DNA of 64,000 nt from Sipunculus nudus (Eukaryota; Annelida; Sipuncula; Golfingiida; Sipunculidae): NCBI GenBank assembly GCA_026874595.1, contig CM049307.1, forward strand, positions 41,792,362 through 41,856,361, in the 5' to 3' direction. Under the pieces are notes generated by a model. The model ran no database searches. It had not been told where the DNA came from and saw only the letters and a program-made list of their open reading frames with translations. Positions 40,601 through 63,487 of the stretch are shown one piece after another (positions within the stretch are counted from its first letter, which is position 1; each line of letters opens with the position of its first letter). A program made the translations under genes and the position numbers.

Positions 40601-43600
40601 CAAGAAAGCTATCCAGGATGTATAAAACTGCAAAATTTTAGGCAGATATATCAAACCACTGCCGAGATATGAGTGACATTATCCCATGGCAGACAAACAA
40701 GACAGATGCTGTGCAAAAATGGTTGCAGGTGGCCCCTCCAGTTTTGCGTATGATAAAGAGCTATGTGAGATCTATACACATGCAAAATTTTGGCCCAATC
40801 GGTCAAATGGTTCTATCCTGGATGTATACGCATGCCGAATTTCAGGTGAATTAGTCAATTCACTGCAGAGATATGAGTGATTTTAACTCAAGGCAGATGA
40901 ACAGATGGACACTGTGCAAACATGGTTACAGGTGGCGCCACCATTTTTGAATATGTTATAGAGCTATCCAAGGGCTACATTTGTATAAATTTAATTACCT
41001 GATCAGTCAAACGGTTCCCAAGATATGAGCTTGGATGTGATCAGCGTGAACGTGAATGTAGGTGGCGCCACCTGTCATAAAATCAAGAAAGCTATCCTGG
41101 ATGTATACGCATGACGAATTTTAGGTGAATTAGTCAATTCACTGCAGAGATATGAGTGATTTTAACCCAAGGCAGATGAACAGATGGACACTGTGCAAAC
41201 ATGGTTACAGGTGGCGCCACCATTTTTTGTGTATGTTATAAAGCAATCCAAGGGCTACATTTGTATAAATTTTAATTCCTGATCGGTCAAACGGTTCCCG
41301 AGATATGAGGGTTTATGTGTGGGAACAGACGCACAAATGGACACTGGATAGAGAGGAAAGGTCAGAGGTCAACGCAAATTGGTTAGGCACTAGCTTTGGC
41401 GGATACAAAAATACAGGTGGCTCCACCAGTCTGCAGAAACTAATAAAAACACTTAATGGTCAATATCCATGCAAAGAATCATGGTGATCTCTGCATTAGT
41501 TGTTCAGATACTTCAGCTTTTGTATCAAATTGTCCGTTATTCTGAGGGATACTTCAGAGTCCTATAGCTTGAAGGATATGGGTAACAGAGACCTAATTTC
41601 AGGTTTCAATGGAGACTTTTCATGGGTCTCCCTCTGTGTCAAGAATGAAGATTCTAGGTCCAGTCTTTATGATTTGTGCCCTGGTAACAGCTGTTCACAT
41701 TTTTAAAGGTCTCAAAAATAGACAAAACAATTCGTAAAAATTGAAAAATACAGGTGGCGCCACTAGTCTGCAGGTGGCGCCACCAGTCTGCAGAAACTGA
41801 TGAAACATCTCATGATCAATAAGTATGCCAAAAATCATGACCATCAGTGATGTAGTTAATGAGATATTGAAGTTTTTGTATGAAATTTTTTACTATTCTG
41901 GGGGGTACTTTGAGGCCCCATAGCTCAAAGGATATGGGCAACAGAGATCTAATTTCTGGTTTCCATGGAGATTTTTCATAGGTCTCTCAGTGTCTCGAGA
42001 ATGAAGATTCTAGGTCTAGTCGTTACTATTTGTGCCATGTTAACAGATGAGCATCCTTAAAGGTCTCAAAATAGAGGAAAAAAATCGTAAAAAATCGAAC
42101 AATGCAGGTGGCGCCACCAGTTTGCAGGAACTGATGGAACATCTCATGATCAATATGTATGCCAAAAATCATGACCCTCAGTGATGTAATTATTGAGATA
42201 TTGAAGTTTTTGTATGAAATTTTTGACTACTCTGGGGGGTACTTTGGGGCCCCATAGCTCAAAGGATATGGGTAACAGAGACCTAATTTCTGGTTTCCAA
42301 GAAGATTTTTCATGGACATCTCAGTGTGTCAAGAATTAAGATTCTAGGTCCAGTCTTTACGATTTGTGCCTTGTTAACAGATGTTCCCGATTTAAAAGGT
42401 CTCAAAAATAGAGAAAAAAATTCGTAAAAAATTGAACAATACAGGTGGCACCACCATTCTGCAGGAACTGATGGAACATCTCATGATCAATATGTATGCC
42501 AAAAATCATGACCATCAGTCAAGTAGTTATTGAGACATTGAAGTTTTTGTATGAAATTTTTTACTTTTCTGGGGGGTAATTTTGGGCCCCATAGCTCGAA
42601 GGATATGGGTAACAGAGACCTAATTTCTAGTTAGCAAGGAGATTTTTTATGAAATTCTCAGTGTGTCAAGAATTAAGATTCTAGGTCCAGTCTTTACGAT
42701 TTGTGCCTTGTTAACAGATGTTCACATTTTTAAAGGTCTCAAAAATAGAAAAAAAATCATTAAAAATTGAAAAATACAGGTGGCGCCACCAGTCTGCAGG
42801 AAGTGATGGAACATCTCATGATCAATATGTATGCCAAAAATCATGACCATCAGTCAAGTAGTTAATGAGATATTGAAGTCTTGTATGAAATTTTTGACTT
42901 TTCTGGGGGGTACTTTGGGGCCCCATAACTCGAAAGATATGGGTAACAGAGACCTAATTTCTGGTTTCCAAGGAGATTTTTCATGGACCTCTCAGAATCC
43001 CAAGTTACAAGGTTCTAGGTCCAGCGGTTATGATTTGTGCCTGGTTAACGGACGGACAGACGGACAGACAGACGGACAACGGACAAAGAGTGATCGCTAT
43101 AGCTCAGATGACTTTCAGTCAGCTGAGCTAAAAATCCTCTCATGTTCATTAATAAATGAAATATTACTTGCCCATAATTTTCCAGAATTATCTAGAAGAC
43201 AGAAACTAGCAGGATTTTGCTCTTTGTGACCCAGCTTATGACATCCAGCATTTAGTGTGTATGCAAGATGGCAGACACAAAAGTTGAATTTGAGAAACTG
43301 GGAGAAATAAAGCTGTCAGGGTTAGAAACCCGGAAGTACTCCAAGGGCAGCGTCCTGGTAGGAATTTATCTGAGAAGGGAGTTTGGTGGCAAGTGGGCAT
43401 GTATTGGCAAAGTACGGGGCGGAATAACTTTTCTGGGACCACACCCACATCCTCAAATTACAGTAGGATGCATCTGAAACAGACACATTCTATAACCACG
43501 ATAATAGTTCTGTATGTGTTCATAAACATCAGGTATATTCAGTAGACTGGCTCCACTGCACTTACCAGTATGTCTCCTCATATGTCTTTTAAGTGATCCC

Positions 43601-46600
43601 TTGGTTTTGAAGGCATATGAACAATTCTCCCATGGACAAATGTAGTCCCTGTGTTCAGAATGTGTGACCATGTGGGCCTTCAACACACTGGCCTGGGAAA
43701 ATAAAACATATTGCATCAAAACATGAAACTATAATGATATCAGTGAAATGAACCCAACATTCTGATGGTATCTGGCTCTTTAATGTGTATGTACACAGTT
43801 AAAGGAAAGCAACAATTTTTATGAAATCTACACCTAGCTACAAACCGTCATCTAATTAAGGGCATAGTGCTGAAAATTCATGATTAACTGATTAATGCAG
43901 GACTTGATATGCTGCTAGACAGAAATCAACTGTTGTAAATATGTACAAAATTGTACACATAATTGAATCCCATAATACATTAAACATCTTGGTAATAAAA
44001 TGTTTATAAATTGATATGCACATTACATCACATACTTCAGTTGGGGATTATAAATCCTGATTATCAGGAACTAAATAAATTATTAAATACACTCACAATG
44101 ATCATTTTTAAACCTAGAGCACTCTGATCAAAAGGGCTTTTATATATCAATAAACAATCTGACAATAAGATTTTTATATTGCAAGATCCTTTACACCATG
44201 GCATGTAAAATTTTATTAGTGTATCCATTACACAGTTATTATTGCACCCACCAACACCAATTTTTTCTTTTATAATAGCCCCATTTACACATGTTTTTCT
44301 GGAGCCCTCTACATTGTTTAGCGCGCGCCAAGTCCCCCAAAGGCACCAGATTTTGAGGATTTTTGGTCTGGAGCGCGCTACATTTTGACCACCAGTTTGA
44401 GTCGGTTCTAGATTCTAGCGCGCGCCAGACTGAGTCTGGCGCAGCCTACATTTGTGCTTCCAACCTGTGTAAACATAAGTGGAACGTGCTATCTTTATAG
44501 CGCCCTCCAGCAAGACTCGGCTGTCATGTGAATGGGATATACCCATGCAAGCAAGGAGGAATCCAATCTAGACCACGCTAGCTTGCAGTATCCACATGTA
44601 AACGCAAAACACATTCTAGGCCTGGCCAAGCGCAATGACAGGGTAGCGCGCTCTACATGGTAACTTGTTCCAGCACAGTGTGCACGCAAGTTAAAATGTA
44701 GCCCACTCCACATATTTTTGGACCAGTCTAGCGCACGCCACATTTTGCTAGTGTAAATTGGGCTTATATGTATCATTTAAACAAGCTTCATGATCTTATC
44801 CCTGGACATATACCCCATTCTGATCCCATGACTAATAACCCAGCACCAAAGTATCAGCTATGTTAGCATCTCCCACACTGACCTCTTTAAACCGTTTCTG
44901 ACATATCTCACAGAGGAACGGTCTCTCTCCCAGGCCATCGCTGTCATCAGGTCCCTCGTAGTCTCTTGCATGCATCACAGGTTCATACTTCCCGTAGTCC
45001 AGGTTTTCTTTCTTCCACTCCTTGTCCTCTGGATATCATAAAATACAATGTAGTCTATGTGATACAACAGAAACCAGCAGGCTGGAATTAGAGGTTTGCT
45101 AGGGAGGGTTAATGTTGAAGATGAAGGACATTCATTAAAGTAATTTTAAGCAGTTAAGGTAAGCAGTGAAAATGTCATATGGGCATTCAAAATAGTTCTT
45201 TAGGAAAACTTGAATTACAAGTAAGTATATGAATATAAATCATTCAGCATTAAATTTAACAAACATGGCAAATTACAGGTCCTGGCCTAGTTCTTTGAAA
45301 TTTGATTGGTTCAGTGTTACACAAAGAACTCATAAAACACAATAAAAAACACACATTCTCAGGCATTTAAATTCAATCTTATGGGTGACTGCCTGTTCAC
45401 ACTCAATGCTAACAAGACTCACTGACTTCCAATCTATGAGTCACCATTAAAAAGCTCTGAATGTAACATAATGCAAAGTTGCTTCACTGTCTGTTTTATT
45501 GTGTAATGTATACATGCCAGAATTGAGGATTATCCTTGTTGGTTTATTACATACAGATAGTAAATAGGATATACATATTGACCTCATTTCTAGTGTACTA
45601 AAATGGAGGTCTTTGATGGGTTGGACTAGTAGATATTATGAATAAGGCGGATAACATGAAATATGTAACTAAAGATGACTATGATAGCATCTGATGCTAC
45701 ATACCTTGGAACTGCACTAACTCCCCTTCATCATCATTATCATCATCATCCTCACTTCCCTTCGTGGTTTCATGATCGTACTGCTGGTGACGCTTTAACG
45801 TGGCCTCCCGGTTAAATGAGCGATCGCACTGACTGCACTGGTACCTCTTCTTCTCAGTAATGATGGCATCTGGCTCAATGCCAAGCTTCCTTTTCCTTTT
45901 TGCTGCAAGTACCCAAAGGAAATGATAGTCTCTGTGGGATACAACCTGGTGGTTCAGTCATTGAAATTCTGAGTTAAAGTCCATTTATCAAAAGCCACAA
46001 GAACCCTTAAAATGTTCACAATGATAGACTCAAACTTTCAGATAATCCTAATTTTATTCTTTCAGATAATTCTAATTTAATATGTATAAAACCTGAACTA
46101 TGGTTTTATCTGAGCCACAAAAATTAGTCTGATTGTTCCTATATGCGTGGAACAATCGGTACACTCATGCAAGAGAGGAGAAAAATGCCAGGAAAATAAA
46201 CCTACCAATGTTCATTACTGGGGCAAAACAGTGGGCACAACCGCCTGCAAAAATATTGAGCAATTAGAAAAGGTTCTGATTTGACTACAAATAAAGCAGA
46301 AGCTATTCCCTGTCGCATTTGAAAAAAGTTTTCTCCACATTCACACTGTCAATGGCCGATGTGGGCATTTAAACCATGTGACACGTTGAACTGCATAAAC
46401 ACATGCCTTGACAGGCTGGCCCACACAAACAATCTTATCATTGGCAGAGCAGTCACGTGTTATAAGCAGAGGGCCAATAAGAGGTTCGTAATAAAAATTC
46501 ACCCCATGTGACTTCATTCATGACTATTTTGGCGGGAAAATGTTCAATGACACCGTGTTACTTACGGTGGTTATAATTTTCAGCTGCCGTGACGGTAGCA

Positions 46601-49600
46601 CAGTGAGTATATAACTGACGTATGCAACTGATAATGTCTAATGCACAATCTCCACAAATTAGATGTTTGGTATTCCAAAAATTACTTGATTTCATCAGCA
46701 AAACTTTGGTAGCAAAGGTTTGCTACCATGCAACAAACATAGGTAGCAGATCATAAAAGTTGGTAGCAAATGCTACCGATGCTACCGCTTAGCAAATGCT
46801 ACCAATGCTACCGCTAATTTCAACCCTTGTATAATAGCCAACACTTTAGAAGTAACAAAAATCAGAACAAATGACCCCAGCAACCTTAATCCTTGAGCTC
46901 ATACATTTACACACTTTTTTTTATGAGACTTTCACACTATCACAATTCTACACAAACCTCTCCTCAAATCATCTTTGGTTTTCTCTCCTTGGAGTGTGCT
47001 GTTGGTGTTCTCTCTTTGTTCTGGTGTGACTCCAGTCTCTTCCTTGACCTTGATCTTTGGTATGAGTATCTTGTGTTGTCCTCGCTGATAAATCACTTTA
47101 CAGTTGTCTTTGGCTAACTTGTGTTTCACGTAATCTTCCAGTGAGTGGAATATGAGCTTACACTTGCCACAACAGTGGGTATCACCGACCTCACCCTCAA
47201 TGGGTAATAATGTTGGTCCTTTTTTGTTGTTGTCTTTGGCATAGCTGTGTAACTGACTGGTGCCAGTCAGGTGATTGTGAACTTCTGTAAAGTATAGAGT
47301 TAAACGGTATAGTACATTATAAATATTGAAATCTAATGCAGTAGAATCAAGCTAAAACAACAAATTCTTAGGCAAATGTGTTACACAACTGGCTAAATTG
47401 TTGTTACTTTAGGTATACATAAGAGCAACTCTGCTTTTAAAAGTACAATTGGTATTTGGAATTAACCAGAGATGCTCAAATGCTGTACAAACAGATCACA
47501 AAACACCTAATATTGACAAATGTGGTACTGCTAATTTTTGTTTGTGCTTACTCTTGACATTTTGCTGCAATCATGGCCTGATCTAAGCAGCATAGCAGAA
47601 ATTAAATTTCAAAAGTCTACAGGATACACAGCACTTGATTCAGCCTGTCTTACCTTCAATTTCTGTCATACTACAAAGTCTTAAAACATTTCCTAATGCT
47701 CCTGGCATACTTCCAGTATCTGCAAGTAGTCAGAGAAAATGTAACAGTACATCACATAAACAATGAGTGACAAACTGTGACAGTACATCACATAAACATG
47801 GAGTGACAAACTGTGACAGTATATTATATAAACATGGAGTGACAAACTGACAGTACATCACATAAAAATGGAGTGACAAACTGTGAAAGTACATCACATA
47901 AAACATGGAGTGACAAACTGTGACAGTACATCACATAAACAAGGTTGACAAACTATGCCAGAACCTCACATAAACATGGAGTGGCAAAGTGTGACAGTAC
48001 ATCACATAGACCAGGAGTGACTATGTGTGACAATGCATCATATAAACACTGAGTGACAAACTGTGACAGTACATCACATAAACAAGGTTGACAAACTATG
48101 CCAGAACCTCTCATAAACATGGAGTGGCAAAATGTGACAGTACATCACATAGACCTGGAGTGACTATGTGTGACAATGCATCATATAAACACTGAGTGAC
48201 AAACTGTGACAGTACATCACATAATCAAGATTGACAAACTGCGCAAGAACCTCGCATAAACATGGAGTGACAAACTGTGACAGTACATCACCTAAACTGG
48301 AGTGACAAAGTGTGACAGTACATAACATAAACAAGATTGACAAACTGTGCAAGAACCTCACATAATCATGAAGTGGCAAAGTGTGACAGTACATCACATA
48401 GACCTAGAGTGACAATGTGTGACAGTGCATCATATAAACATTTAGTGGCAAACTGTGCCAGAAACTTTCATACACATGGAGTTGCAAACTGTGCCAGAAC
48501 TCACATAAACAAAGAGTGACACACTGTGCCAGTACATCGCATAAACATGGGGTGACAAACTGTGACCTAACATCACATAAACTGGATTGGCAAACTGTGA
48601 CAGTACATCACATAAACATGGAGTGACAGAATATGCCAGACTACCAGAACATTACATAAACATGGAGTGACAAATTGTGCCAGAACATCACATAAACATT
48701 AACTGTTACAGTACATCACATAAACATGGAGTGACACACTGTGACAGTTCATCACATAAACATAGAGTGACAAACTGTGACAGACATCACATAAACATGG
48801 AGTGACAAACTGTTACAGCACATCACATTAACCTGGAGCTTTCATAATAAATATACCTTTTATCACAAAGTAATAAAAATCTCCAAGCAATTAACATAGT
48901 ACCATCCACAAGTTGCATGCCTGCCTCCAGAATGGACGAAAGATATCTTTACAATGTTATCACAAGCTAGGGCCTTTGCTCTTTTTTTCAGTTTACTGGT
49001 ATGACTTTGAAGAACATATGATATATCTTCCTAAAAAAGTAAATACTCACTCTGATTGGCTACTTGATTCATCTCCTCTGATCGACTGCAATACTTGCTT
49101 CGTTCATCTGCAGGTAATGTTTCCCATGCCTCCCAAAGCCTGTAAAGATACAAGTTTTTATGTATACATACATATATAAACTTGCCAATAATCCAAAGTA
49201 AAATTATGGTCATTTATAAAACACCTGAAGATTATCATTAAATGTTCACACCAAATGACTGCTGGTACTTATTTTAACACAAGATGACTATTTAAAACAA
49301 GGTTACTACTTACTTTAACACAAGATAGTCAGGTTTGTTGACACAAGATGGATCTTTTTTCACTCAAGATTATTACTTTTTGACGCAAGATAATGACATA
49401 TTTTGACACAATATGACTACATATGTTGACACAAGATGGCTACCTTTTTTCACACAACATTGCTACTTAATTTTGACACAAGACGGCTACTTATTTTCAC
49501 ACAAGATGACCACATATTTCACACAAGATGGCTACTTATTTTCGAAGAAAAGACTTTTTTTCACACAAGTTTGTTTCTTATTCAACACAAGTTGTTTACT

Positions 49601-52600
49601 TTTTTCAAATTAGTTGGTTACTTATTTAACACAAGTTGGTTACTTATTTAACACAAGTTGGTTACTTATTTCACGAAGGTTGGTTACTTATTTCACCAAA
49701 GATGACAACTAATTTCAAACAAGTTTGTTACTTATTTCTCACAAGTTGGTTACTTTTTTAACATAAGTTGGTTACTAATTTCACACAAGTTGACTTGTTT
49801 TTTTACACAAGTTGACTACTTATTTCACACAAGTTGACTACTTATTTCACATAAGTTGGTTACTAATCTCACACAAGTTGACTTGTTTTTTTCACACAAG
49901 TTGACTACTTATTTCACACAAGTTGGTTACTAATCTCACACAAGTTGACTTGTTTTTTCACACAAGTTGACTACTTATTTCACACAAGTTGACTTCTTAT
50001 TCCACACAAGTTGTCTACTTTTTTCACACAAGTTGTCTACTTTTTTTCACACAAGGTGACTAGTTTTTTCACACAAGTTGACTACTAACTCTAACACAAG
50101 TTGACTACTTATTTCACACAAGTTGGTTACTTTATTCACAAAAATTACCTACTTATTTCACACAAGTTGGCTACCTTTATCACACAAATTGGATACCTAT
50201 TTCACACAAGTTGGTAACTTATTTCACACAAGTTGGTAACTTATTTAACACAAGTTGGTTACTTATTTAACACAAGTTGGTTACTTATTTCACACAAGTT
50301 GACTTCTTATTCCACACAAGTTGTCTACTTTTTTCACACAAGTTGTCTACTTTTTTCACACAAGTTGTCTACTTTTTTTCACACAAGGTGACTAGTTTTT
50401 TCACACAAGTTGACTACTAACCCTAACACAAGTTGACTACTTATTTCACACAAGTTGGTTACTTTATTCACAAAAATTACCTACTTATTTCACACAAGTT
50501 GGCTACCTTTATCACACAAATTGGATACCTATTTCACACAAGTTGGTAACTTATTTCACACAAGTTGGTAACTTATTTAACACAAGTTGGTTACTTATTT
50601 AACACAAGTTGGTTACTAATCTCACACAAGTTGACTTGTTTTTTCACACAAGTTGACTACTTATTTCACACAAGTTGGTTACTAATCTCACACAAGTTGA
50701 CTTGTTTTTTCACACAAGTTGACTACTTATTTCACACAAGTTGACTTCTTATTCCACACAAGTTGTCTACTTTTTTCACACAAGTTGTCTACTTTTTTTC
50801 ACACAAGGTGACTAGTTTTTTCACACAAGTTGACTACTAACCCTAACACAAGTTGACTACTTATTTCACACAAGTTGGTTACTTTATTCACAAAAATTAC
50901 CTACTTATTTCACACAAGTTGGCTACCTTTATCACACAAATTGGATACCTATTTCACACAAGTTGGTTACTTATTTCACACAAGTTGGTAACTTATTTCA
51001 CACAAGTTGGTTACTTATTTCACACAAGTTGGTTACTTATTTCACACAAGTTGGTAACTTATTTCACACAAGTTGGTAATTTATTTCACACAAGTTGGTT
51101 ACTTATTTCACACAAGTTGGTTACTTATTTCACACAAGTTGGTTACTTATTTCACACAAGTTGGTTACTTATTTCACACAAGTTGGTTACTTATTTCACA
51201 CAAGTTGGTTACTTATTTCACACAAGTTGGTAACTTATTTCACACAAGTTGGTTACTTATTTCACACAAGTTGGTAACTTATTTCACACAAGTTGGTAAC
51301 TTATTTCACACAAGTTGGTAACTTATTTCACACAAGTTGGTAACTTATTTCACACAAGTTGGTTACTTATTTCACACAAGTTGGTAACTTATTTCACACA
51401 AGTTGGTAACTTATTTCACACAAGTTGGTTACTTATTTCACACAAGTTGGTTACTTATTTCACACAAGTTGGTAACTTATTTCACACAAGTTGGTAACTT
51501 ATTTCACACAAGTTGGTTACTTATTTTACACAAGTTGGTTTCTTATTTCACACAAGTTGGTAACTTATTTCACACAAGTTGGTTACTTATTTCACACAAG
51601 TTGGTTACTTATTTCACACAAGTTGGTTACTTATTTTACTCAAGTTGACTACAGATTTCACACATGTTGGTTACTTATTTCAAACAAGACGATTAATGAA
51701 TTAAACACATGATTATATAATTTTTCATATAATATGGCAACATATTTATATAAAAGATGTTTTCAAAAAGATAAATATACAATTTTAAATAATTTTAAAA
51801 TTTAACAGGAAAATACTGATTTGTTATATATCATATTGCTATAAATTTTGTAATATTATTGACGATAATGACAACAATTGGTATTAAAATATGTTCTAGT
51901 AAATTTTTGATCATAATGAAGTAGTCTGTATAAATAAAAAAAAATCTGCTTTTGACACTTTCTTTATATTATTTTTTACTATTATTTAATTATTTTAAAA
52001 TATTAACAGTTTTATCTTCAATTAGTAATTTACATAATACAGAATACAGATGTTTGAGCTTTCCACATGTACATTATCAATACAGAATTTTTATAAACAT
52101 AGTCATTAAACGATAATCAAAATGGGCATGAAATAATTGATTTATTTCAATTATTGCATTTTCATTCATTTTCATACCTTTTCAGTCTCTAGCTCTTACC
52201 ATGGACCAGATAAACAGCGTTCATGATGAAGTAGCACTGTTATTTAACAAAGAAAGTCACCTTATATTCTTCATTAGATGTTAGCATAATATTAGATGAG
52301 AAGATATAAATATTACTTGGTCTGCATAAATCCTCAGGTATATAATAATCTTAACCTTAAAGCATTTATATCATATCATTATGAGATGAAAACTTTTAGT
52401 AGATATATGTCTCTGACAGTATATTGTGACTGTATACAATAATTGAATAGAGAATCGAATCGAAAGGCAATAATCGAGAATCAAAGACCCCTTAGCAATT
52501 CACAAACCAAATTAGCTCACTTTGTATCAAAGGCCTTGCCGGTAAGGTCTGGATGTTTTTGTTGAATGGACTCATATCTCTCATCAGCAAACAACAGGAA

Positions 52601-55367
52601 GGCATTTGGTTTTTGTTTAACAACAGTTCTGGCCTCTGCTCCAGCTCCATCTACAGATAAGATATGGTACTAAATAATCTGGCATGAAAAGGATCATCAT
52701 ACAATTCTGATCAACATTTGGCAAAATATCAAGATGAACATGGGATATCACCAATGCAGTTTCTAGTGTAAATGGAGGAGAAAAACTGGCTAGCACAACC
52801 AAAAGACAATTTATGCAGGCAAGATCGATTCAGCCAGATAGTCAATAGCACTGACTTATCCGACTATCCCCACTAATTAGCACAAGGTATACATGTATAT
52901 GCAAGGAATACTACGTACTTAATGTGATCAGTGATGGAATATGAGGCTCAATTATTTATCTGCATGATGGAAGGCAAATAAAATGAAACTTGCCAAATAT
53001 GAAGTTTATGAGTAAATGAAAGACCATGTGTAGCGTTGCCCTGAATTATTATGCAAGTCTGTTAAGTTCTATTAAAAGTCATCATTTCTAGGCTTTTTCA
53101 CAATTATGCATGTTTTCATTTAACCTTAAAAAAAAGACTTTAAAGACAAGACAATATTAAATTTATGTATGATTTATAATGAAAATGCTGTATTGAATGT
53201 ACAGCTGTATTGAATGAGTGCTAGTTGTTTGCCTACAGTTTTTAAGACAGGCATATTCTACATATATATTCCACATATATAGAGCTTTAGCTGCAAATAT
53301 AAACATGTATTCATTATATCAGAGCATTTAAAAGCGACAGCCATGTTTTCAGATTTAGGTATGTACAAGTGTATACATCTAATGGTCTGTAATGGAGTTG
53401 TACATTGTCATCTGTACAACATGTGGATCTTTGGCATCCTACCTTCTCATAAAAGGCATTACATATAGGCTTCACTGGCAGTTCAATGTATCAAAACTGT
53501 TTACCATTATCACAACTAATCTCTTTTCTCTCACAAATTCCAGGGCACAGTAATTTCTACACTTAGAATTCCTTAGAATTAGTGAGTAATATGAAACCAA
53601 CCTTGTTTTTGACTATCTCCCTTTTTAGACTTTCTTGAAAACCTGAATTTTTGTACAATTTGAGATAAAACTTCACTCTAGACAGAAAACCTTATGGTAA
53701 ATCATGTTCATATTTTTTGGGGGGTTTGACTGCTATCAGTAGGGCTGAAATGTGAAAAATATACTGTTTTCTGATACTTTTTTTTAATTTTCTTCCTTCA
53801 ATTCGTATTATATTTTTGGATCTTTGTTTCCTTAAATATATAATTTTTTAAGTGTCCAGCTTGAAAAAAAAAGTTCACAAAAAAAAAGAGGTGATGAAAC
53901 AAGTATTAATTATTATCAATTTGTGCACAGGTATATACAGATGTTGCCTTGGTGCAAGGCTGAGAATTACACACCAGGTGACCCGGGCTCCATACTCAGC
54001 CTTGAGTATGTTCTTACGAAATATCGTAGCGGTCCTTCTGATGTATCAGAAGGAAAGAATAAAAGAGTAATTAAGAATAAGATGCAGCTTAAACTATGTT
54101 CACTCTACCTATATATCCTTTATATATCAGTTTCCATACATGTGGAGTCTCCTGTTTATGTTATATATGATATAACAGCATTTTATCATGAAGAGAAGAG
54201 CAGAAGACCATCACTGACACAGCCATGTTGCTGAGGCATGAACTCTGTTCACCCATGACCTGACCTGTGACCTGACCTCTGGTGTACCAGAGTAATTTAT
54301 TGCTAATAAATCTATTTAAAAAATCTTATTTCATGAATAATACTTATGAGTAAATGATAATATATGGCTTCAATAAGTCCTTTATAAGTTTATGGCTATA
54401 TCATTTAAGGTTTTAACAAATTTGCCTATGGAAGTTATGGAAACAATATTTATTATAATTTATTTGGAACAATAATCAGAGGACAACTTTTTTCATATCA
54501 ATAAGGTCAAGGACAGGGTCATGTGACAAAAGATAAACATGACCGCATGGCAGGCTAAAAAAACCACAGGAGTTGAAATCTTAACAATTTCCTTATAAGG
54601 GCACTTCTACATAATTTATTTTTACTCCAGAACAGTTTATTAGCCATTATTGGTAAGAAATTTGCTAAATTGCCTCCATTTTCTCTGTTTATTTTGCAAA
54701 TATCCCAATATACCCTTGCTACGCTTTTCCATAAGAGGATCCCCATAACTGAAATCTCATTTCAGTTATGAACCCATAACAAATACAGATGATAAGTACA
54801 GTGATTATAGTATACACTGTAAAAAACATAGTGATCATCAACAACTTGCAATATTTAACAATCACAGGCCATTTGTAAATTGTGTCTTCAGTTATAGCTA
54901 GATATCCAAGTCAGCCCCTTCGATTAGAAAAATAGTAAATTACCAGATCGAATTCATTTATTGATTTAATAATTAGTTTTAACAATTTTTTTTTAAATAA
55001 TCAATAGTAATTTAGATATTGATAAGTGATACTGATACTGGGACACTCTGTCACAGCAACCGGTCACTGTATATCATTAATTATATCAATATGAATATAT
55101 GTATAAATAAAAGTTAAGCGGGCGTTCATGGCCACACTGGTGTCTTTTGGGTTGTATCTGAAACCGTTCCCATACGACCTTCTTCCAAAAGTTAGCAGTA
55201 TCATCGCTGGTGAACACTAGTTTCGTTGGATTCACAACTGCAAGTGTATTTGACAGTCCTACAAGCCCACAGATAACATGTGCTTTCCCTCCAATATTTG
55301 TTTACAAACCATTGCCATGAGTCGCTGCGTTGTCGACCATCGGTGTGTCGTGATCTGCGGCAGACAT
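27866..55367 (-). CDS. E4F1: E4F1-like transcription factor with N-terminal HMG box (19 coding exons, 1,141 aa)
   Basis: This is the homologue of E4F1, a nuclear zinc-finger regulator and atypical E3 ligase in vertebrates. Nineteen exons join with matching phases to 3,426 nt. Domains: HMG box 31-91; E4F1 C2HC finger 153-176; basic KRKRK 238-242; fingers at C259, C342, C370, C400 (H-x6-C like vertebrate E4F1), C507, C535, then six at C673, C701, C729, C757, C785 and C813 (last again C2HC); acidic/Gln-rich C-terminus 834-1141. Diagnostic matches include [14 protein letters not shown]-like [25 protein letters not shown] and [11 protein letters not shown]. Vertebrate E4F1 is about 780 aa, with about nine fingers and no HMG box; the box and fingers C259, C507 and C535 are extra. 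Introns carry R1, R2 and minisatellites. Exon joining is mine, without transcript data. Confidence 0.85.
31200..31333 (-). CDS. E4F1: E4F1 coding exon 18
   Basis: It opens VPCTK, whose Cys completes the last finger. [17 protein letters not shown] matches the conserved LVEFSSVVADTQEYII after the fingers of vertebrate E4F1. The donor is GTAAGG. Confidence 0.9.
31761..31805. promoter_or_regulatory. E4F/ATF-type binding motifs in an E4F1 intron
   Basis: GTGACGTAAC (31761-31770) is an exact match to the E4F consensus RTGACGTMAC. GTGACGTCAT (31796-31805) contains the full CRE palindrome. TTGACGTAC lies between them. They lie between exons 17 and 18. Whether they are used is unknown. Confidence 0.4.
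32521..32719 (-). CDS. E4F1: E4F1 coding exon 17
   Basis: It completes the previous finger ([10 protein letters not shown]) and encodes [17 protein letters not shown] and [16 protein letters not shown], near-identical to the end of the vertebrate E4F1 finger cluster. Confidence 0.93.
33297..33514 (-). CDS. E4F1: E4F1 coding exon 16
   Basis: It encodes two complete fingers and the start of a third: CDLC, CGEC (with ISHVREH, compare vertebrate IAHVRGH) and CSIC. The donor is GTGAGT. Confidence 0.92.
33572..34771 (-). mobile_element. R1 element filling an E4F1 intron, 1.2 kb
   Basis: On the minus strand it runs from the 5' hairpin (34771-34742, GTATCCGCCAAAAC with its complement) to a damaged 3' hairpin and CTAG (33575-33572), flanked by T on both sides. 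It has several sub-units of about 150-250 bp, each with a GGTGGCGCCACC-type core (exact at 34434-34445). The host intron is 33515-34822, so only about 51 and 57 bases lie outside the element. There is no coding capacity. Confidence 0.75.
34823..34983 (-). CDS. E4F1: E4F1 coding exon 15
   Basis: It ends with the finger [19 protein letters not shown] and HTG, the first of the six-finger cluster. The donor is GTGATG. Confidence 0.88.
35374..35612 (-). CDS. E4F1: E4F1 coding exon 14 (acidic linker)
   Basis: It encodes an Ala/Thr/Glu-rich linker. The donor used here (GTTCAA) is poor. A GTAGTT donor giving an exon end at 35359 would add five codons without changing the frame. Confidence 0.7.
35770..36070 (+). 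repeat. Degenerate tandem repeat, about 34 bp
   Basis: Units resembling GATACTCACTGCCAGTTAAA with CTTTGTTTGG recur with growing divergence. It lies in the intron between exons 13 and 14. The intron at 36237-38408 holds several AAAAAGAGTG runs (37080-37150 and 37390-37500) and nothing else recognisable. Confidence 0.6.
36078..36236 (-). CDS. E4F1: E4F1 coding exon 13, two extra fingers
   Basis: With exon 12 it forms [17 protein letters not shown] and a final His (C507-H527), followed by [19 protein letters not shown] with a final His (C535-H556). Both obey C2H2 spacing and lie between the two E4F1 finger clusters. Confidence 0.82.
38409..38501 (-). CDS. E4F1: E4F1 coding exon 12
   Basis: An acidic linker ending NQCR. 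Its Cys starts a C2H2 finger completed in exon 13. Phase 0/0, donor GTGAGT. Confidence 0.8.
38859..39030 (-). CDS. E4F1: E4F1 coding exon 11 (linker)
   Basis: It opens [17 protein letters not shown], matching the TPCTEK that follows the third finger in vertebrate E4F1, then a Pro/Gln-rich linker. The acceptor is weak (ACCTGAAG), but the conserved Cys supports it. Confidence 0.8.
39499..39577 (-). CDS. E4F1: E4F1 coding exon 10
   Basis: It encodes [20 protein letters not shown] and RHLKS, the third finger of the first E4F1 cluster. The zinc-binding Cys is supplied by exon 11 (C423). Confidence 0.92.
40165..41406 (-). mobile_element. R1 element nested in R2
   Basis: The minus-strand 5' end is GTATCCGCCAAAG (41406-41394). 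The 3' end is GTAGTCACTTGTCGGCTACC, five bases, CTAG (40168-40165). It has exact GGTGGCGCCACC cores at 40931, 41061 and 41210. The flanks are an R2 unit cut at a T run, so the insertion point is readable. Confidence 0.75.
41410..43000 (-). repeat. R2 tandem units, about 335 bp
   Basis: The motif CAGGTGGCGCCACCAGTCTG recurs at about 41411, 41751/41771, 42105, 42439 and 42777, spacing 333-339. Each unit has CATGATCAATATGTATGCC, GGGGGGTACTTTGGGG, GATATGGGTAACAGAGAC and GATTCTAGGTCCAGTC. Confidence 0.88.
43566..43692 (-). CDS. E4F1: E4F1 coding exon 9
   Basis: It encodes [11 protein letters not shown] (end of the previous finger), then a finger with C-x4-C (C370, C375) and [15 protein letters not shown]. 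Vertebrate E4F1 has [10 protein letters not shown] and FRTKGSLIRH here. Confidence 0.92.
44276..44765. mobile_element. CpG-rich MITE with inverted ends
   Basis: It starts AGCCCCATTTACACATG and ends with the complement of AGCCCAATTTACACTAG, followed inward on both sides by TCTGGAGC or GCGCGC-rich motifs. It is strikingly richer in GC and CpG than the intron it lies in (between exons 8 and 9). No target duplication is clear. Confidence 0.55.
44883..45028 (-). CDS. E4F1: E4F1 coding exon 8
   Basis: An acidic linker, then [15 protein letters not shown], the first half of a finger completed by exon 9. The donor is GTCAGT and the exon ends in phase 0. Confidence 0.85.
45705..45902 (-). CDS. E4F1: E4F1 coding exon 7, basic patch and zinc finger
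   Basis: It encodes KRKRK, then the C2H2 finger [19 protein letters not shown] with a second His (x4), then an acidic run. The donor is GTATGT. This finger has no counterpart I know in vertebrate E4F1. Confidence 0.85.
46206..46244 (-). CDS. E4F1: E4F1 coding exon 6, 39-nt microexon
   Basis: It encodes [12 protein letters not shown] (phase 1/1). It is bounded by acceptor TTTTTGCAG and donor GTAGGT. It adds a CxxC pair. Skipping it keeps the frame. Confidence 0.7.
46700..46815. repeat. Cluster of GGTAGCA/TGCTACC inverted repeats
   Basis: GGTAGCAAA and TTTGCTACC alternate at least seven times in about 115 bases, so the strand can fold in several ways. It lies in the intron between exons 5 and 6. 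Confidence 0.75.
46958..47284 (-). CDS. E4F1: E4F1 coding exon 5, atypical C2HC finger
   Basis: It contains [20 protein letters not shown] followed by KLAKDNC. This matches the N-terminal CGRCxxxFxxLEDFVxH of vertebrate E4F1, the region linked to its E3 activity. A basic and acidic linker follows. Confidence 0.87.
47654..47719 (-). CDS. E4F1: E4F1 coding exon 4 (linker)
   Basis: A 66-nt exon in phase 1/1 encoding [20 protein letters not shown]. The acceptor is TACTTGCAG and the donor GTAAGA. It has no recognised domain. Confidence 0.7.
47735..48835 (+). repeat. Minisatellite, about 37-38 bp
   Basis: About 28 copies of a unit close to ACATCACATAAACATGGAG plus TGACAAACTGTGACAGT, with variants that themselves repeat (AGACCTGGAGTGACTATG blocks). 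It lies in the intron between exons 3 and 4. Confidence 0.9.
49051..49139 (-). CDS. E4F1: E4F1 coding exon 3, second half of the HMG box
   Basis: It encodes [16 protein letters not shown], matching the LGxxWKxLSxxEKxxY region of HMG boxes with the core tryptophan. It starts in phase 2, ends in phase 1, and its donor is GTGAGT. Confidence 0.82.
49265..51690 (+). repeat. 22-bp minisatellite, about 110 copies
   Basis: The unit is TTATTTCACACAAGTTGGTTAC with variants. The right part (50940-51650) is homogeneous. The left part is more variable and has a block (GACTTCTTATTCCACACAAG onward) repeated at 49991, 50301 and 50743. It splits the two HMG-box exons of E4F1. The frames through it are artefacts. 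Confidence 0.95.
52521..52650 (-). CDS. E4F1: E4F1 coding exon 2, first half of the HMG box
   Basis: It encodes [20 protein letters not shown] and on to GKAFDTK, the helix 1-2 part of an HMG box (the KPxNAF motif is typical). The acceptor is TATCTGTAG and the donor GTGAGC at 52520; the exon ends in phase 2. Confidence 0.8.
53946..54054. other. Dense hairpin cluster in E4F1 intron 1
   Basis: Three perfect hairpins lie in a row: CATACTCA/TGAGTATG (53991-54010), TACGA/TCGTA (54015-54028) and CCTTCTGAT/ATCAGAAGG (54034-54053). In addition AAGGCTGAG (53956-53964) is complementary to CTCAGCCTT (53995-54003), a pairing that excludes the first hairpin. GGGCTCCATACTC weakly resembles a polymerase III B box, so a SINE is one possible source. 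Confidence 0.55.
55310..55367 (-). CDS. E4F1: E4F1 coding exon 1 (start)
   Basis: The ATG at 55367-55365 has AAAATGT context. It encodes 19 residues and ends in phase 1 at donor GTTTGT. It joins exactly to the HMG exon at 52650 (GAT codon across the junction). The donor is not a strong consensus, so this exon is less certain than the rest. Confidence 0.6.
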
Positions 55368-55520
55368 TTTGCGACAACCGAAAGGCCGCAAGAATATACA
55401 AAATAAAATAACGATCGTTGTCTTCGGGCCGGAACTAACGCTTCAACGACGCGGAATCCAAGAAGGATCCATTTCGGCCCAAACCATATCAACCACGTTG
55501 ATCTTATCCTTCAGCTACTA
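55368..55520 (-). promoter_or_regulatory. CpG-rich region upstream of E4F1
   Basis: CpG steps are frequent here (ACGATCG, CGACGCGG, TTCGGGCC) in contrast to the flanking AT-rich DNA, and it directly precedes the proposed start codon. No TATA box is evident. Promoter function is inference. Confidence 0.35.
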
Positions 55521-56852
55521 AAGATAAGATTTGCAGTCGAAAAGCTCTAGAGTTTAAAGTCATCTATATCAATATTAGATGTGTTAGGTGTATTAATAAT
55601 TAAAGTAACAGCAGTGTTTTATTATAATATTGAGTTTACAATGAGGAAATTTCCCTGTTGATGACAGGACGAAAGGGAACGTCTTTCAGGCTAAAGGCCC
55701 ATCCATAACTGTAATTTACTTTAAATGATTGCATATTAAAGTTACATTGTTAAACTATTGAATTTTTTTTAGATTTCCTTTTATGAAAAAGTTGGACTGT
55801 AAATGAATGAAAAATGTATATGTCATATAAATTAGTTAATGATCATATTCCGTAAATTATAAACCATATTGATTGAAGGCACATAAAACGTTTGGGCTTT
55901 TAATAATAAAGCCTGGTTGCGGGTTTTCATAAATATAGTTACTTACAGTTTACTTACTGGCTTTTGATTTCCAAACTTTTATATAAAGGAACATATATGT
56001 GTTCGGTGAATATATATAATACGTATTTGATAACAGGGATCGAAATTAGTGCCTGACCACGGACATTGCATGCTTGATTTTTGTCGGCCCTCCTTGGACG
56101 AAAAGTATTTTTACAGGGGCCACCATCAAAATTCTGTTTTCGCGAGAAGCACACAAATACTTTATTCACTGTGCAGATAAAAATTATTGCGTCATCAATA
56201 AAGTTAATAAATTCCAATGTGAGCGGACTTTGTGAATTAGACATTAAAATTAATAAGAGGTGTTCATTTTACCATGTATAATATGTACATATACATTACA
56301 CGTTTAACAAAAAATGGCTGAAAATAATAATAAAAAAATTGGACTCGGTCAAATCCTTTGGGGTCCGGTAAATTTTCTGCCTCGACTGACTCTACTGTCC
56401 AGTAGAAAAATTTACCAGTTTCGAGCCTTGGATATAACGTTTGTTTCTGAATGAATATATTCAGGTTTTGTCTTAATAGGAGTGCCGGCAAAAGAGGGTT
56501 TATAGATCACATTTGAATATATGTTAATATTTGACAAAATTTCTCAAATTGATTGAGACAAATGCCTACCACAATGACCTAATATTTCGGGCCTTATTGT
56601 TTTTTTTTCCTTAATAAGCCTTTTCAAGGATTTGTTCATGAATAACCAGCTAATTATTATATTACGAGACACTCTGTCATATTATATATACAATGATTTT
56701 TGTGCAGTAACTATTTTCAGATTTGGCTATATGAGGCATCAGTAAAAAATAGAATACTTTTTTTCATACAAAGTAATTTTCTAAAAGTGTCTGTTAAAAT
56801 GTCTCAAGGAAAAGTTATATTCGAAACCTGGGTAAAAACATTTTTAATATAT

Positions 56853-56971
56853 TAAGGCTGGGTATATTGCCTTTATACAAATTTCGTATATATTGCGTTA
56901 TTTGGTAGCGTATTGCGATATCTATATTGCGATATTTCCATTGCATTAAAAGGAAATATAAGTGTGTTTGC

Positions 56972-57051
<80 letters not shown>

Positions 57052-57532
57052 AATATATATATATGTCTATTGTTATTATTATTATTTTTATAATAGTTCT
57101 TTATCATATATATTAAATATAATGGCACAATAAAGGTTTATGTTGATCAGGCAACATAATATACTACTAATATATATTGTTGAAAATGCCAAAATTAACA
57201 TTTAAAATCAAAGTCTTCTTTATGCCATGTGCAAATAACTTGGATATGAGAGATTTCTGGTCTATTTTTAGACATTATAAGAGGGATAGACGGTGCGCAC
57301 AATTACAGCCATGCATACCATGCCACATCGCATGCAGGGCTGCCGTTCTTAAATTATATAATACTGTAACATTGACACTTGAACTTCCTAAGTTATCATA
57401 AATATTAATATATTAAGGAATGATTAATTATTCTGCCTGTGTTCAGCACTTCTTTCTTTTTGCGTATCATATGTATAATATCTCTCGTATATACAAATAT
57501 AAGTCATCTCGCAAACATGCAAATTCCCTGCA

Positions 57533-57585
<53 letters not shown>

Positions 57586-57836
57586 ATATAAGACTTGCTT
57601 GAAAATTCATTGTTAACTGTCTAAAGACATGGTATAGAGGGGTTTTCACTTTAAGTCTGCATGTCATTAATCCAAAAAAACAGAAAACTTGTTTTTACTT
57701 TTTAAAAAATAAGTTTTTGGCATGTTCACAAAATATCGAAAATTACGATATTTGAAAACTGTATCGCGATACGCAATACGGGAATCACCGCATCGCGATA
57801 TGTACCGAAATTTCGATATATTATCACTCAGCTTTA
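56853..57836. mobile_element. MITE with ATATCG-rich inverted ends, containing TA microsatellites
   Basis: The left end AAGGCTGGGTATATTG and the complement of the right end, AAAGCTGAGTGATAATATA, share a pattern and both lead into ACAAATTTCG/GAAATTTCGG and TATTGCGATA/TATCGCGATA steps. This looks like a hAT-type MITE. TA microsatellites sit at 56980-57064 and 57536-57583. Between 55530 and 56850 I see no feature. Confidence 0.5.
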
Positions 57837-58889
57837 CAATATACATGCATATATAGTATACATGCAGGTGGCCCCGTGAGCCATGCATAATCTAAGAAAT
57901 GCGTCTAAAAGATCAAACCGTATAGTTCCATTTAAGAATATATAAGAAACAATTGACAAGGAATATAAAAGGAATATATATATGTACGGATATATTCAGG
58001 GAAAGAGGGGGTTCAACCCAGGAGGACTAATGAAACCCCTATAAAAAGGTCCCCTGGTCCGGAAAGGGGGATCCAATTTTGTCTGGTTCCCTATATATAA
58101 AAAAAGGTTGTGGAGGATGAAAAGACCCCCCCCCCCCCCCCGACTGTATATTCGATCAGATAGGAGTTGATATAGGAACGCCCTTAAAAGGTGTCATCTG
58201 ACAGAAATGTATTCAGTCTTTAAAATATAAAAATTGTATTTCATGGGAAATATTTCGTGTTTAGCTCTTTCGTTCTGTTTGGGATTTTTGAAAATGTCCT
58301 TGCAGAATTGCTAATAATTATTCTGTGAAAAAATTATATGTATATGTTTTACATATATTATATGCTTTGTCTTAGACGACTTTGACGACAATGACATATT
58401 TATCTCTAAAAATACTGAATTACTTTTTGTATAAAATCGATAAATGGTGATCAGTAATTGGTTGCCCGACTTTTGTTTATATACATAACAAACTTTGAAC
58501 AGACAGCCACAATCATTCCTATATATAGTATCAAACCTGAAATAAAAAAATACACACCATTTGTATGGCATCACCTGTCTGATAAAGTAAATAATTTTAT
58601 TCATATACCACATTACAGTGCATCACCTGTGAATATACCACATTAATTTACGTTTCCTTGGAAATCGTGAATTTAAGATTAAATAATTAGGTTTCTATTT
58701 TGACGAATTTATGACGTATAAAACAAGTTTATATGTATTAATATTATATCCGATTCAAGAGCACTTGGAAAAATAATTGTTATAAGTTTAAACAGTTAAA
58801 AAATGTAAATGCCGGAATTGTTCCTTTAAATCCTTGATTATGCAGAAGTGTATGGGGTGCTGCATGTGATGGCACCAGTTTGTGACAAT

Positions 58890-59540
58890 TAAGGTACAGA
58901 ACAGGTCGATTCGATTTTTCTTGGGTTTTCATGCACAGATTTTGTCCTGTTCCGGGAATGGTTTGCTGAGATGGGGCGGACTTCATGTATATGGGGCGTA
59001 GATATATTAAAATTATAAAATTTTGGAATTATTATTAACCGATTAGTCAGAATGGACTCGCACAGAATAACAAAGAAAAAGTTTGATTGGAATTATCACA
59101 GTAGGAAAAATAGCCGGTGTCCTAATGTTGCAAAAATATTTGATAATATATAAATATGGTAACAATTTTTGAAATTAAAGAGATTTGTTAAATCAATGAA
59201 GCCTTGAAAAATGAGTTTTATTTATTAAAATGATTTTCAGATGCTAATAACAAGCAAACAATAAGGACATTAAAATTGATTAACACAAATTTGGAAACAG
59301 AATCATACTTGAAAATTATTCTTTTTAGTCGAAATAGGTCTCTATAATGGCTCAATTAAGATGCGGTCTGTTGCCTTTAAGAATATAAGACTGGTCGCTT
59401 CCAGAACATTTACGATTCTACCATGCACTAATAAATAACGAAAGCTTAAAGCTAATGGAAGAATTTGTTAATATTGCAATTACAGCGAAGTAAAAGATGA
59501 GATTCAATTTGTATGCCAGTGTCCATTATATAATGCGCCT
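58890..59540 (+). pseudogene. Non-LTR retrotransposon ORF2 C-terminal fossil
   Basis: Fragments in shifting frames give VQNRSIRFFLGFH (58893 on), RMDSHRITKKKFDWNYHS (about 59050), MAQLRCGLLPLRI (about 59350) and KDEIQFVCQCPLYN (about 59495). These follow, in order, the C-terminal part of metazoan non-LTR reverse-transcriptase proteins, ending in the CxxC-type region. Stops and frameshifts throughout show it is dead. Confidence 0.65.
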
Positions 59541-59559
59541 ATATATATATATATACAAG

Positions 59560-61816
59560 CTAGCACATGCAGTGAGTAAAAGGTGTATCTGACTGCAGTA
59601 ATACTGTAAGATCCGCACAATGAGCAAAGGATAACTTTGATAACTAAGTTTATAATATTAAGTAGTTTATTTAAGGGAATATATACTAAATTTCATATAA
59701 TATATTTTATTCATTTTTATTATGCTTTTATACTTTCCTTTTCTGCTCTCTTTTTCCTATTGATCGTCTATTTTGGGGGAGCTGGTATAGATGCATCATC
59801 CCCCCCCCCCCGTGGAACCATTCCTGGTTAAATTCGTTTGATCTTATATATATAGATATACACATTCGAATTCTAAACGCTAAGGAATAGCCTGTACGAC
59901 ATAAATAAAAAAAATATATATATTAATAATACCATGCATGAACTTAAGACTGTTAACTTTTACTGTTAACCTGTAATAAAAACATTGTGCCGCTCCTGGT
60001 GGTGCATCATCCGGTGGCAACGGTGGACCAACTATATCGAGGAGGTCGAATATAACCTGGACTATTAATAGTCTTTGATTAAATTATGTTTCTATTTACC
60101 CTTAAACTGAAATTTTAAACTTTGGTTAAATAAAAATCATTTAAAATTTCATATATCACCAGAAAGATGCACAGAATAGAAGAGAAAAAAAAGTTTTTGC
60201 CATACAGTTTAACACTAATCCACTAAAAGGTGGTTTACTGTGAGTAAGTGCTTAAAATGGCACACCTTTTTAAAAATGTTCAATAAAAAAACTGTTAAAA
60301 AAAGAATATAAAAATGAATGGAAAGTTCAAAAATCGATGTGAAATGAAGCAACTATTGACTGATCTTAGATACAGATATTTTTGCCGGGATGCTACAGCC
60401 CGGGTACTATATAACATACCATGGGGAAGCCATAAACCGTATATATGCATGCATGATATAAAAGTAACTTGATGTAAGCCTATTTTCGCCGCCCTGTGGC
60501 CACTGCAATAAGTGCATGGTGACATTTTGTTCCATATCAAGTACCGGTATTTAATTAATATATAATTATTTGGCATAGTCTTGCCCTTTTGTTTATTTTT
60601 TATTACTAGTATATTTTATATCTCTTAATTCCTCTTCATACATTTGTCGAAACCCTGACATTTGTATAAATGCATTAATTTATAAATTAACATATTAAAA
60701 TAGAAGTTATTTCAGGAAGTACGAGGTACCTTAAGGGTGAGCATTTTTTTTACAAAGTTAATGACTTCTGAGGCTAAAATAAGGTTGGTGTCTCGTAGAC
60801 CGCGCGCGTCAATTTTGAACACTCCCCCCCCCCCCCCCCCCCCGAAAAAAAAAATTAATCTTGCATGATTTTCAGTTCACTTTTCCCAATTTTAGCTTCA
60901 GTCGCTCGGACTTTAATTTCTTTCAAGAATTAAAAATAATAAAATTTCGATCAAGTTTGGTTTTGTCATGATGTGCTTTTTCCCGTTTGGCAAAACAATT
61001 CTGTTAGGTTGTCACCTGACCATTTGAATTTTTAGGCCTACTGAACATTTGTGATAGGGCTAAAAAAAGGGGAACACAAATGAATCGCCTCCCGCACTGA
61101 TTTCTGAATAATTTTAAAAAAGTTGCCAGGAACCCGACTTTTTTTCTAACGCATTTAGTTTAGATTTTGCATTTAAAAACATACCCTTACTAAAAAATGT
61201 GAGTGATAGGGCTTATTAATATGAAAATATGAGATGAAGACCATGAATTTGACGGGAAATCATGTAATTTAGACCTATAGGCCTAAGTAGAATGTGAGAG
61301 AACGTGTAACAAGTAATGTACTCTTATGAAATGATATAGGTCGAATATTGCTCCCTCTGCGTTCTAAAATATTCCTGTCTCTGTAAACGTAAAGGGGAGC
61401 AAATTTCGACCATTTGATAAGAGCACAAATAACAAAAAAACTGCCGTCCGTATGTTGATTTTGTAAAACGCCGACCTCGTATGACACACAGTTAAACTCG
61501 ACCAGAACAAAACTCGCCTAAGAACTTGGCAACGTACCCGTCTCGCATCACTTTCACCATAAACATACAGTGAATAAAAGGTATAATGAAAAGTTACTGG
61601 GACAAAAGACGTTAACATAAATTGAATTATACTACAAATATTTGATTATTTTTATCATTTCGTGTGTTTTGATTCAATCCGTAAGACAGTCTCGGATTTC
61701 GATCGATAATTTTATGAATTTTAATCACCCGGAAGTTTGGGGGAATACGCTCCAGAATACCCGGATGTTCAAAAAATCGACAGAAGAAGCAGAGGTTGCA
61801 TCTTCTGACGTGAAAC
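59560..61816. other. AT-rich spacer before RING1/RNF2
   Basis: No gene is seen. Poly-C tracts occur at 59800-59810 and 60825-60842. The last 500 bases are richer in CpG and include TTCTGACGTGAAAC just before the RING1/RNF2 start, a half-match to ATF/E4F sites. The promoter presumably lies here. Confidence 0.5.
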
Positions 61817-62645
61817 ATGGAACAACCTCCCGTGCCCAGCAAAACCTGGGAACTCAGCTTATATGAGCTGCAGCGAACCCCGCAAGAAGCAATCACTGAC
61901 AATACAGAGATCGCTGTATCTCCGCGTAGTCTGCACAGTGAGTTAATGTGTCCGATATGTCTCGATATGTTGAAAAACACCATGACCACCAAAGAGTGTT
62001 TGCACCGTTTTTGTCAAGACTGTATCATTACAGCTCTGCGGAGCGGTAACAAAGAGTGCCCCACATGTCGTAAAAAGCTTGTATCTAAACGGTCACTTCG
62101 TCCAGACCCTAATTTTGACGCCCTCATATCTAAAATATATCCCAGCAGAGACGAGTACGAAGCTCTCCAAGAGCGAGTGCTCGCCAAGTTCAAAACCCCC
62201 AGCCAAGCGTTTGTGAAGAGTATTGAAGAGGGTCTCAAACTCCAAGCCATGAATAAAGCGCAGAGAGTGAGACCAAAAAGAGCACCAGATGGAACAGAAA
62301 TCCGACAAGATGGACCAACGCCGCCGCTGCCAATGACAGATGTCCCACAAGGCAATGGCACAAACAGTTCCGCCCCAAGTCCAGTTCCTGGAGATGTTCC
62401 TTCCAACGCACCGCGCAAGAAACAGAAGATGACTTCAGAAGATTCCGGTGCAAGTGGTGGGGAAATGTCAGTCGGTGACCCAGTATCAGATAGTCAGGAG
62501 GGCCCACCTCCCGCACCGTTACCCCCCACTCCAACAGTCAGTGAAATTGAGCTAGTATTCAAACCACATCCAGATGAGGAGCAAAATGCCAACACAGAAG
62601 CCCTTGCACAGATCAGATATATAAAAACTACAGCAAATGCTACAG
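61817..62645 (+). CDS. RNF2: RING1/RNF2 coding exon 1
   Basis: It encodes the N-terminal arm, RING finger, linker and the first part of RAWUL. The donor GTATTG at 62646 is not strong, but the homologous protein continues exactly at 63422. The open frame to 62767 beyond it is intronic. Confidence 0.9.
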
Positions 62646-63487
62646 GTATTGCAACAGTATATCATACATTTTATCACTGGAAGTTAATTAAGTGTCAATT
62701 GAAAATTTTGCATTTATTTTCACAGTCAGTTTTTTCATGCAGCACAGTTTGGCTCTCAAGTGGATGAGGATCTACCAGCCTCATACGAAATAAAAAATAA
62801 AACTTAACGACTATTTTTCACAATTTCTGGATCTTCGACCCATAGATTATAGGTCTTCCCCGCTTTGATTGTCATAGATTCCAGGATATGTTCAAACCCC
62901 AATAACCAGTCATTAGCATTTAAATGCATGTCTAAGTGCATGTGACCTTAAATATCAAAAATTTGACTGAAATGTGAAAATTAGGCTGTACTGAGTGGTG
63001 TATATCTTTAACAGTTTTTTAATTCCTTGAAAGTTAATTAGGCCTATAAAAAACATTGCCAAATTTCAAAGGACACCCTTGATAGAACAGACTAGTGTGC
63101 TGTCTGTTAATTTTATGGTTGTTGTGCAATTGGTAAACTCGGTAAATATTGCTGAACAAATGTTTCCTTATGTAAACTAGCACATGAAAATCTGTTTACT
63201 GATCTAAATGTTCTGTGATCTTGTCTTTGTGTTTATATGGAGCTCAGCTTAATATATCAGGTCAAGCTGTAGATAGTTAACTATTTTGTTGGAGGGTGGG
63301 GTAGAAAAACATTTTAAAAAATGTTCAGCTTTCTTTAGTACCATTGTTAGTAGTGGCTGAAAATAATATCTTGTTGGCTAGATTTGTTTGGTTTAATTAA
63401 CATATAATGTATTTATTTTAGTGGACCATCTTTCAAAGTACCTTGAATTGCGCCTTGCCTTGGAAGCTCAAAAGAATGGTGAAACTG
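61817..63487 (+). CDS. RNF2: RING1/RNF2 Polycomb E3 ubiquitin ligase (5' part; runs off the window)
   Basis: This is the catalytic subunit of Polycomb repressive complex 1, which monoubiquitinates histone H2A. Exons 61817-62645 and 63422-63487 join in phase (ACA G|TG) to give 298 residues. The conserved N-terminus [18 protein letters not shown] leads into a C3HC4 RING (C45, C48, C61, H63, C66, C69, C81, C84), then [21 protein letters not shown] low-complexity Pro/Ser/Gly linker (about 165-235) follows. The RAWUL domain starts near residue 240 ([10 protein letters not shown]) and reaches [15 protein letters not shown]. The last 50 or so residues should lie to the right. Invertebrates usually have one gene for the vertebrate pair RING1 and RNF2. 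The start is the ATG used by the family. Confidence 0.93.
63422..63487 (+). CDS. RNF2: RING1/RNF2 coding exon 2
   Basis: Acceptor TTATTTTAG at 63413-63421, donor GTAAGT at 63488. It encodes [20 protein letters not shown], highly conserved in RING1/RNF2. The rest of the window (63488-64000) is intron; I see no further exon. Confidence 0.92.

Follow-up and report, generated by a model that had tools for sequence, protein, structure and literature searches.

Mammalian E4F1 has been reported to possess ubiquitin ligase activity and to bind p53 (PMC7916862, PMC8639890). It is described as a controller of p53 that oligo-ubiquitylates its target, the modified p53 being found mainly on chromatin (PMC7916862), and as a factor that the early mouse embryo cannot do without and that governs mitochondrial, metabolic and checkpoint genes (PMC9409040). 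HMG boxes, for their part, differ in what they bind: a single wedge residue together with a specificity asparagine is given as the mark of the sequence-specific boxes (PMC11430298), while the box of Maelstrom is reported to prefer structured RNA and not to bind dsDNA (PMC4373776). The window analysed here, a stretch of 64,000 nucleotides from Sipunculus nudus, appears to bring the two together, in an E4F1-type gene with a diverged and unusually acidic HMG box at the N-terminus of its product.

The gene lies on the minus strand, from 55367 to 27866, and was modelled as 18 exons that encode an E4F1-type protein of 1128 aa. All introns are GT-AG, the phases are consistent, internal stops are absent and the terminal stop is at 27866. 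From the 5' end to the 3' end of the gene the features are as follows.

55001..55500, no strand: CpG-rich 5' end of the gene and likely promoter, o/e 1.15 with 26 CpG in 500 bases; holds exon 1
55310..55367, minus strand: coding part of exon 1; start codon ATG and an acidic N-tail, residues 1-20
52521..52650, minus strand: exon 2; codes for residues 20-63 and with them for the N-terminal half of the HMG box
49559..51688, no strand: minisatellite with a 22-bp unit, 96.5 copies, located in intron 2, which separates the two HMG exons
49051..49139, minus strand: exon 3; codes for residues 63-93, with the C-terminal half of the HMG box and its LWEAWETL
47736..48838, no strand: 36-bp minisatellite, 30.9 copies, occupying most of intron 3
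47654..47719, minus strand: exon 4 (66 nt, phase 1-1); linker of residues 93-115, in which Met97 and Met110 lie
46958..47284, minus strand: exon 5; residues 115-224, E4F1 C2HC-type finger (about 151-173)
45705..45902, minus strand: exon 6; residues 224-290, one C2H2 finger more than in the human E4F1 used for comparison
45028-44883, 43692-43566, 39577-39499 and 39030-38859, minus strand: exons 7-10; E4F1 three-finger block, residues 327-413
38501-38409, 36236-36078 and 35612-35374, minus strand: exons 11-13; two more fingers and a linker
34983-34823, 33514-33297 and 32719-32521, minus strand: exons 14-16; E4F1 six-finger block
31333-31200 and 28657-27866, minus strand: exons 17-18; C-terminal part with a 17-residue non-finger stretch, and the stop codon

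The critical joints are those that lead from the HMG exons into E4F1. Exons 2-5 are entered at phases 1, 2, 1 and 1, with GT and AG present at each junction, and the four junctions proposed by the sequence-only reading (55310/52650, 52521/49139, 49051/47719 and 47654/47284) recur exactly in the rebuilt model, which also bears out its in-frame connection of HMG box and E4F1 with matching phases and no internal stop. Upstream, the reading frame is closed by an in-frame stop 26 codons 5' of the exon 1 ATG; downstream, a single AATAAA lies 3' of the last exon, at 25238. When donors were scored with a simple donor matrix against all minus-strand GTs, donors 2, 3 and 4 ranked in the top 1.1, 2.0 and 0.1%; donor 5 came within the top 9.1%. 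The donor of exon 1 (ATG/GTTTGT) is poor, with 14.6% of minus-strand GTs scoring equally well, and the worst is that of exon 13 (AAG/GTTCAA, 35366-35376; 46.8%), so that the exon 13-14 junction, which falls in a linker, may be misplaced. Exon 4 combines the donor AAG/GTAAGA with an acceptor rich in pyrimidines and, being symmetric (phase 1-1), could be skipped in frame; intron 3, if retained, gives a stop after 6 codons. Introns 2 and 3 consist largely of minisatellite, and gene finders could therefore overlook the HMG exons. Overall, the fusion of HMG box and E4F1 is very likely spliced and translated as modelled.

Further observations concern the repeats and the other genes of the window. 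The dispersed repeats have a bivalve-like appearance. Introns 8 (40200-43150) and 14 (33600-34800) contain, by eye, related-looking repeats with the recurring motif GGTGGCGCCACCTG. On the plus strand, the pieces 596-1567 and 2965-3306 belong to a metallophosphoesterase gene, presumably of the ADP-ribose/CDP-alcohol diphosphatase kind, and a second similar partial copy was seen by eye ~18-20 kb further on, at 20425-20757 and 21092-21406 (plus strand). Pfam Metallophos is matched in the first piece only, the remaining three metallophosphoesterase-like pieces (2965-3306, 20425-20757 and 21092-21406) having no Pfam match.

The assignment of the finger part was made with blastp against a human E4F1 sequence that is not a database record. 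The C2HC-type finger with its LEDxVxHK motif is identical at 13/25 positions, the three-finger block shows 63% identity over 87 aa, and a third alignment, with 39% over 346 aa, spans the six-finger block together with the C-terminal stretch and takes in the 17 residues outside the fingers. The C2HC, three-finger, six-finger and C-terminal non-finger blocks thus occur in the same order as in vertebrate E4F1 (p120E4F), judged by this human protein, and the earlier identification of the finger part as E4F1 is upheld by the alignment of all three finger blocks. The strength of the match in turn suggests that the human sequence used is sound. In the PDB, E4F1 is not named among the 60 of 176 matches listed. 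Taken together, these alignments support the gene as the E4F1 homologue of this genome. It differs from that human protein in length (1128 aa against 784 aa) and in its extra C2H2 fingers, and above all at the N-terminus: its first 143 residues yield no aligned piece against human E4F1, in which the C2HC finger follows after ~55 residues and an HMG box is not known. To that extent the earlier statement on vertebrate E4F1, that it lacks such a box, is consistent with the human protein used for comparison.

The box itself was recognised by Pfam. Residues 31-90 match PF00505 at 6e-8 when the complete protein is scanned, at 2.1e-9 with its N-terminal 114 aa and at 7.1e-10 with the box alone (33.5 to 39.6 bits, against a curated cut-off of 25.4), and PF09011 (HMG_box_2) is matched at 27.1 to 32.8 bits (cut-off 22.4). 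An HMG box had been read from exons 1-3; its presence stands, but exon 1 supplies residues 1-20 only, and the box sits in exons 2 and 3, whose boundary splits the Lys63 codon. Neither exon is conspicuous by itself. When PF00505 was searched exon by exon across the genome (1.43 Gb, 153 contigs), exons 2 and 3 were absent from the 27 matches at E <= 0.001. An HMM trained on a further 12 HMG boxes of the genome, of which two were assembled from two exons each, places the ORFs of exons 2 and 3 first and second (E = 0.0035 and 0.11) among the 2153 ORFs of at least 20 aa in the window, exon 3 being only just ahead of the third-ranked ORF, which lies elsewhere (0.24). As each half is weak alone, the case for an HMG box depends on both halves together: the spliced box scores 31.5 bits with the own-genome HMM, and none of 20,000 shuffles reaches that score, the maximum being 14.7. 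Across nine aligned boxes, Trp68 (column 39) occupies the sole invariant column, and Phe37 and Phe40 fall in columns that are aromatic in all nine.

Among structurally known proteins the closest relative is HMGB1, the best PDB match (whole chain, E = 4.7e-9 over both boxes). HMGB1 B alone matches the box of the E4F1 gene with E of about 5e-4 over 58 residues at 31% identity. It carries a charge of +5 and a serine at the specificity site, against a charge of -2 and an asparagine there in the E4F1-gene box, which also has a glycine at the second wedge. The aligned columns place Asn35 at the specificity asparagine, Leu38 at the helix-1 wedge and Gly57, which is not hydrophobic, in what we take to be the second-wedge column. 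In having the asparagine in NAF and a single hydrophobic wedge, the box is like the boxes of the same genome that we take to be SOX-like and capicua-like; it differs from these in sequence (17-28% identity), in its fewer basic residues and in Trp65, which replaces the usual glycine.

The charge of the box bears on its likely function, since boxes that bind DNA are usually net basic. With nine K/R against 11 D/E in 66 residues it is net negative (-2), and Gln32, Tyr45 and Ser47 stand at aligned sites where HMGB1 and SOX-like boxes have Arg/Lys. Of the 13 other boxes or part boxes in the genome 11 are positive and two negative (L009, -3; L018, -1), so that a net negative charge does not exclude HMG membership, but it does make strong DNA binding doubtful, and the earlier proposal that the box binds or bends DNA and gives the protein two DNA-binding modes finds no support in residues of this kind. 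There is a substantial chance, if somewhat below even, that the box has lost dsDNA binding and serves as a protein-contact module or binds structured nucleic acid only, as is reported for the box of Maelstrom (PMC4373776). The negative charge in a genome whose boxes are mostly positive speaks for such a loss, as does the tree of 14 boxes, in which the E4F1 box forms the longest branch. Against it, the wedge and Asn positions are retained, and L009 and L018 are negative too, L009 resembling BAF57, presumably a DNA-binding protein. Given the acidic box and the example of Maelstrom, a chromatin contact that is weak or depends on structure seems preferable to a second, strong mode of DNA binding.

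Whether the HMG exons and E4F1 are transcribed as one unit can be approached through their CpG content. Long-term methylation depletes CpG. In most invertebrates methylation is reported to be concentrated on transcribed gene bodies (PMC11292947), and in oyster it is described as rising sharply after the TSS and then forming a plateau along gene bodies (PMC4378273). At the present locus CpG o/e is 0.31 over 27866-55000 compared with 0.94 over 55401-62500, and the depletion begins ~300 bases into intron 1 and continues through E4F1. Every 1-kb bin from 47 to 55 kb has a CpG o/e of <=0.33, against 1.02 at 55 kb, and at 47-49 kb, immediately upstream of exon 5, the ratio is 0.11-0.12; higher bins within the gene occur at 46 (0.47), 44 (0.59) and 29 kb (0.64). 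The HMG part as a whole stands at 0.17 (0.21 without the large minisatellite) and the E4F1 part, the 14 exons 5-18, at 0.35. The far side of the CpG-rich block provides an internal control. There, a homologue of RING2 (Polycomb RING1B) with a large coding exon at 61814-62767 on the plus strand (E = 2.8e-86 to RING2) is arranged head to head with the E4F1 gene, ~6.4 kb apart, and since it starts (~61.8 kb) near the other edge of the block, the block corresponds to the space between two divergent genes. Mammalian E4F1 has itself been named together with BMI1 in print. A single transcription unit of HMG exons and E4F1 starting near 55.4 kb is in this manner supported only indirectly, by sequence signals, and the depletion would also fit a pair of neighbouring methylated genes, provided that the promoter of the second were CpG-poor.

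The translation signals between the two parts point in the same direction. No in-frame ATG precedes the C2HC finger within exon 5, and the first in-frame methionine past exon 4 is Met308, beyond that finger; translation of an E4F1 with an intact first finger must consequently begin in exon 4 or 5' of it. This leaves room for a pair of isoforms, one that is made from exon 1 onwards and contains the HMG box, and a vertebrate-like one that starts at Met97 or Met110 and would depend on an internal promoter or a different first exon. The box would then be optional. Both methionines lie in exon 4 and no sequence feature prevents their use, but the uniformly low CpG bins between 47 and 55 kb, set against the high bin at 55 kb, argue against an internal promoter unless it were CpG-poor, and we regard this arrangement as unlikely. 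That exons 1-3 instead form a separate short HMG gene with its own terminal exon, E4F1 starting downstream and the in-frame join being due to chance (the phase would match in about 1 in 3 cases), is very improbable, for although same-strand adjacent genes could both show CpG depletion, the minus-strand interval that separates exon 3 from exon 5 (49050 to 47285) contains neither AATAAA nor ATTAAA, CpG stays low at 47-49 kb, and exon 5 lacks the ATG that E4F1 would need before its C2HC finger. The best explanation, and probably the correct one, is an E4F1 homologue that forms one unit from ~55.4 kb and encodes an HMG box ahead of its C2HC finger.

The N-terminus of this gene is single-copy in the genome. 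A 171-aa query over exons 2-5 gave, at E up to 10, six matches from 11 candidates, all of which were scored: four are exons of the E4F1 locus itself, and the other two are HMG boxes that match only weakly (E = 2.75 and 7.75; 28 and 31% identity); the TGA counted within the exon 2 match falls immediately past the donor. A retrocopy as proof of the exon junctions was considered and rejected, none of the six matches joining exons. With the closest other boxes only ~30% identical, the E4F1 box did not arise by recent copying of any of the other boxes found in the genome. Its intron position (Lys63, phase 2) has, by eye, no counterpart among the exon ends listed, and no donor subfamily can be named from the 14-box tree, which gives no supported placement (0/11 inner branches well supported, the bootstrap being unsettled). 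In contig collections of prokaryotes and viruses the N-terminal 193 aa have no confirmed relatives (95 and 7 pattern matches), a result that by the make-up of these collections is uninformative on other animals. A single-copy, diverged box is compatible with an old fusion or with fast change.

How such a box might work can be sketched tentatively. The zinc fingers would pick the promoters that E4F1 targets. The HMG box, diverged, acidic and with a single wedge, would contribute a weak, structure-dependent contact to bent or nucleosomal DNA or to a chromatin protein, which would help to keep the N-terminal region on chromatin. It is in this region that we take the ubiquitin-ligase part of vertebrate E4F1 to lie. 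By analogy with mammals, where the modified p53 is mainly chromatin-bound, a chromatin-contact module beside the E4F1 N-terminal region would be plausible.

The fusion combines two known parts and is undescribed in the titles and abstract openings searched; public gene models of other invertebrates may well contain it. Invertebrate E4F1 models may miss two small exons that precede exon 5 at distances of 1.8 and 5.2 kb, beyond introns filled with minisatellite. An HMG box before the first finger would mean that the domain make-up of E4F1 varies among animal groups, it would indicate a chromatin-contact function that has not been sought in vertebrates, and its presence or absence across animals offers a simple comparative test of gain versus loss. 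It is conceivable, if on the doubtful side, that the HMG-box E4F1 is ancestral in a large animal group and that vertebrates lost the box. If this were true, E4F1 would have begun as a two-module chromatin regulator, and the mammalian E4F1 would be a reduced protein.
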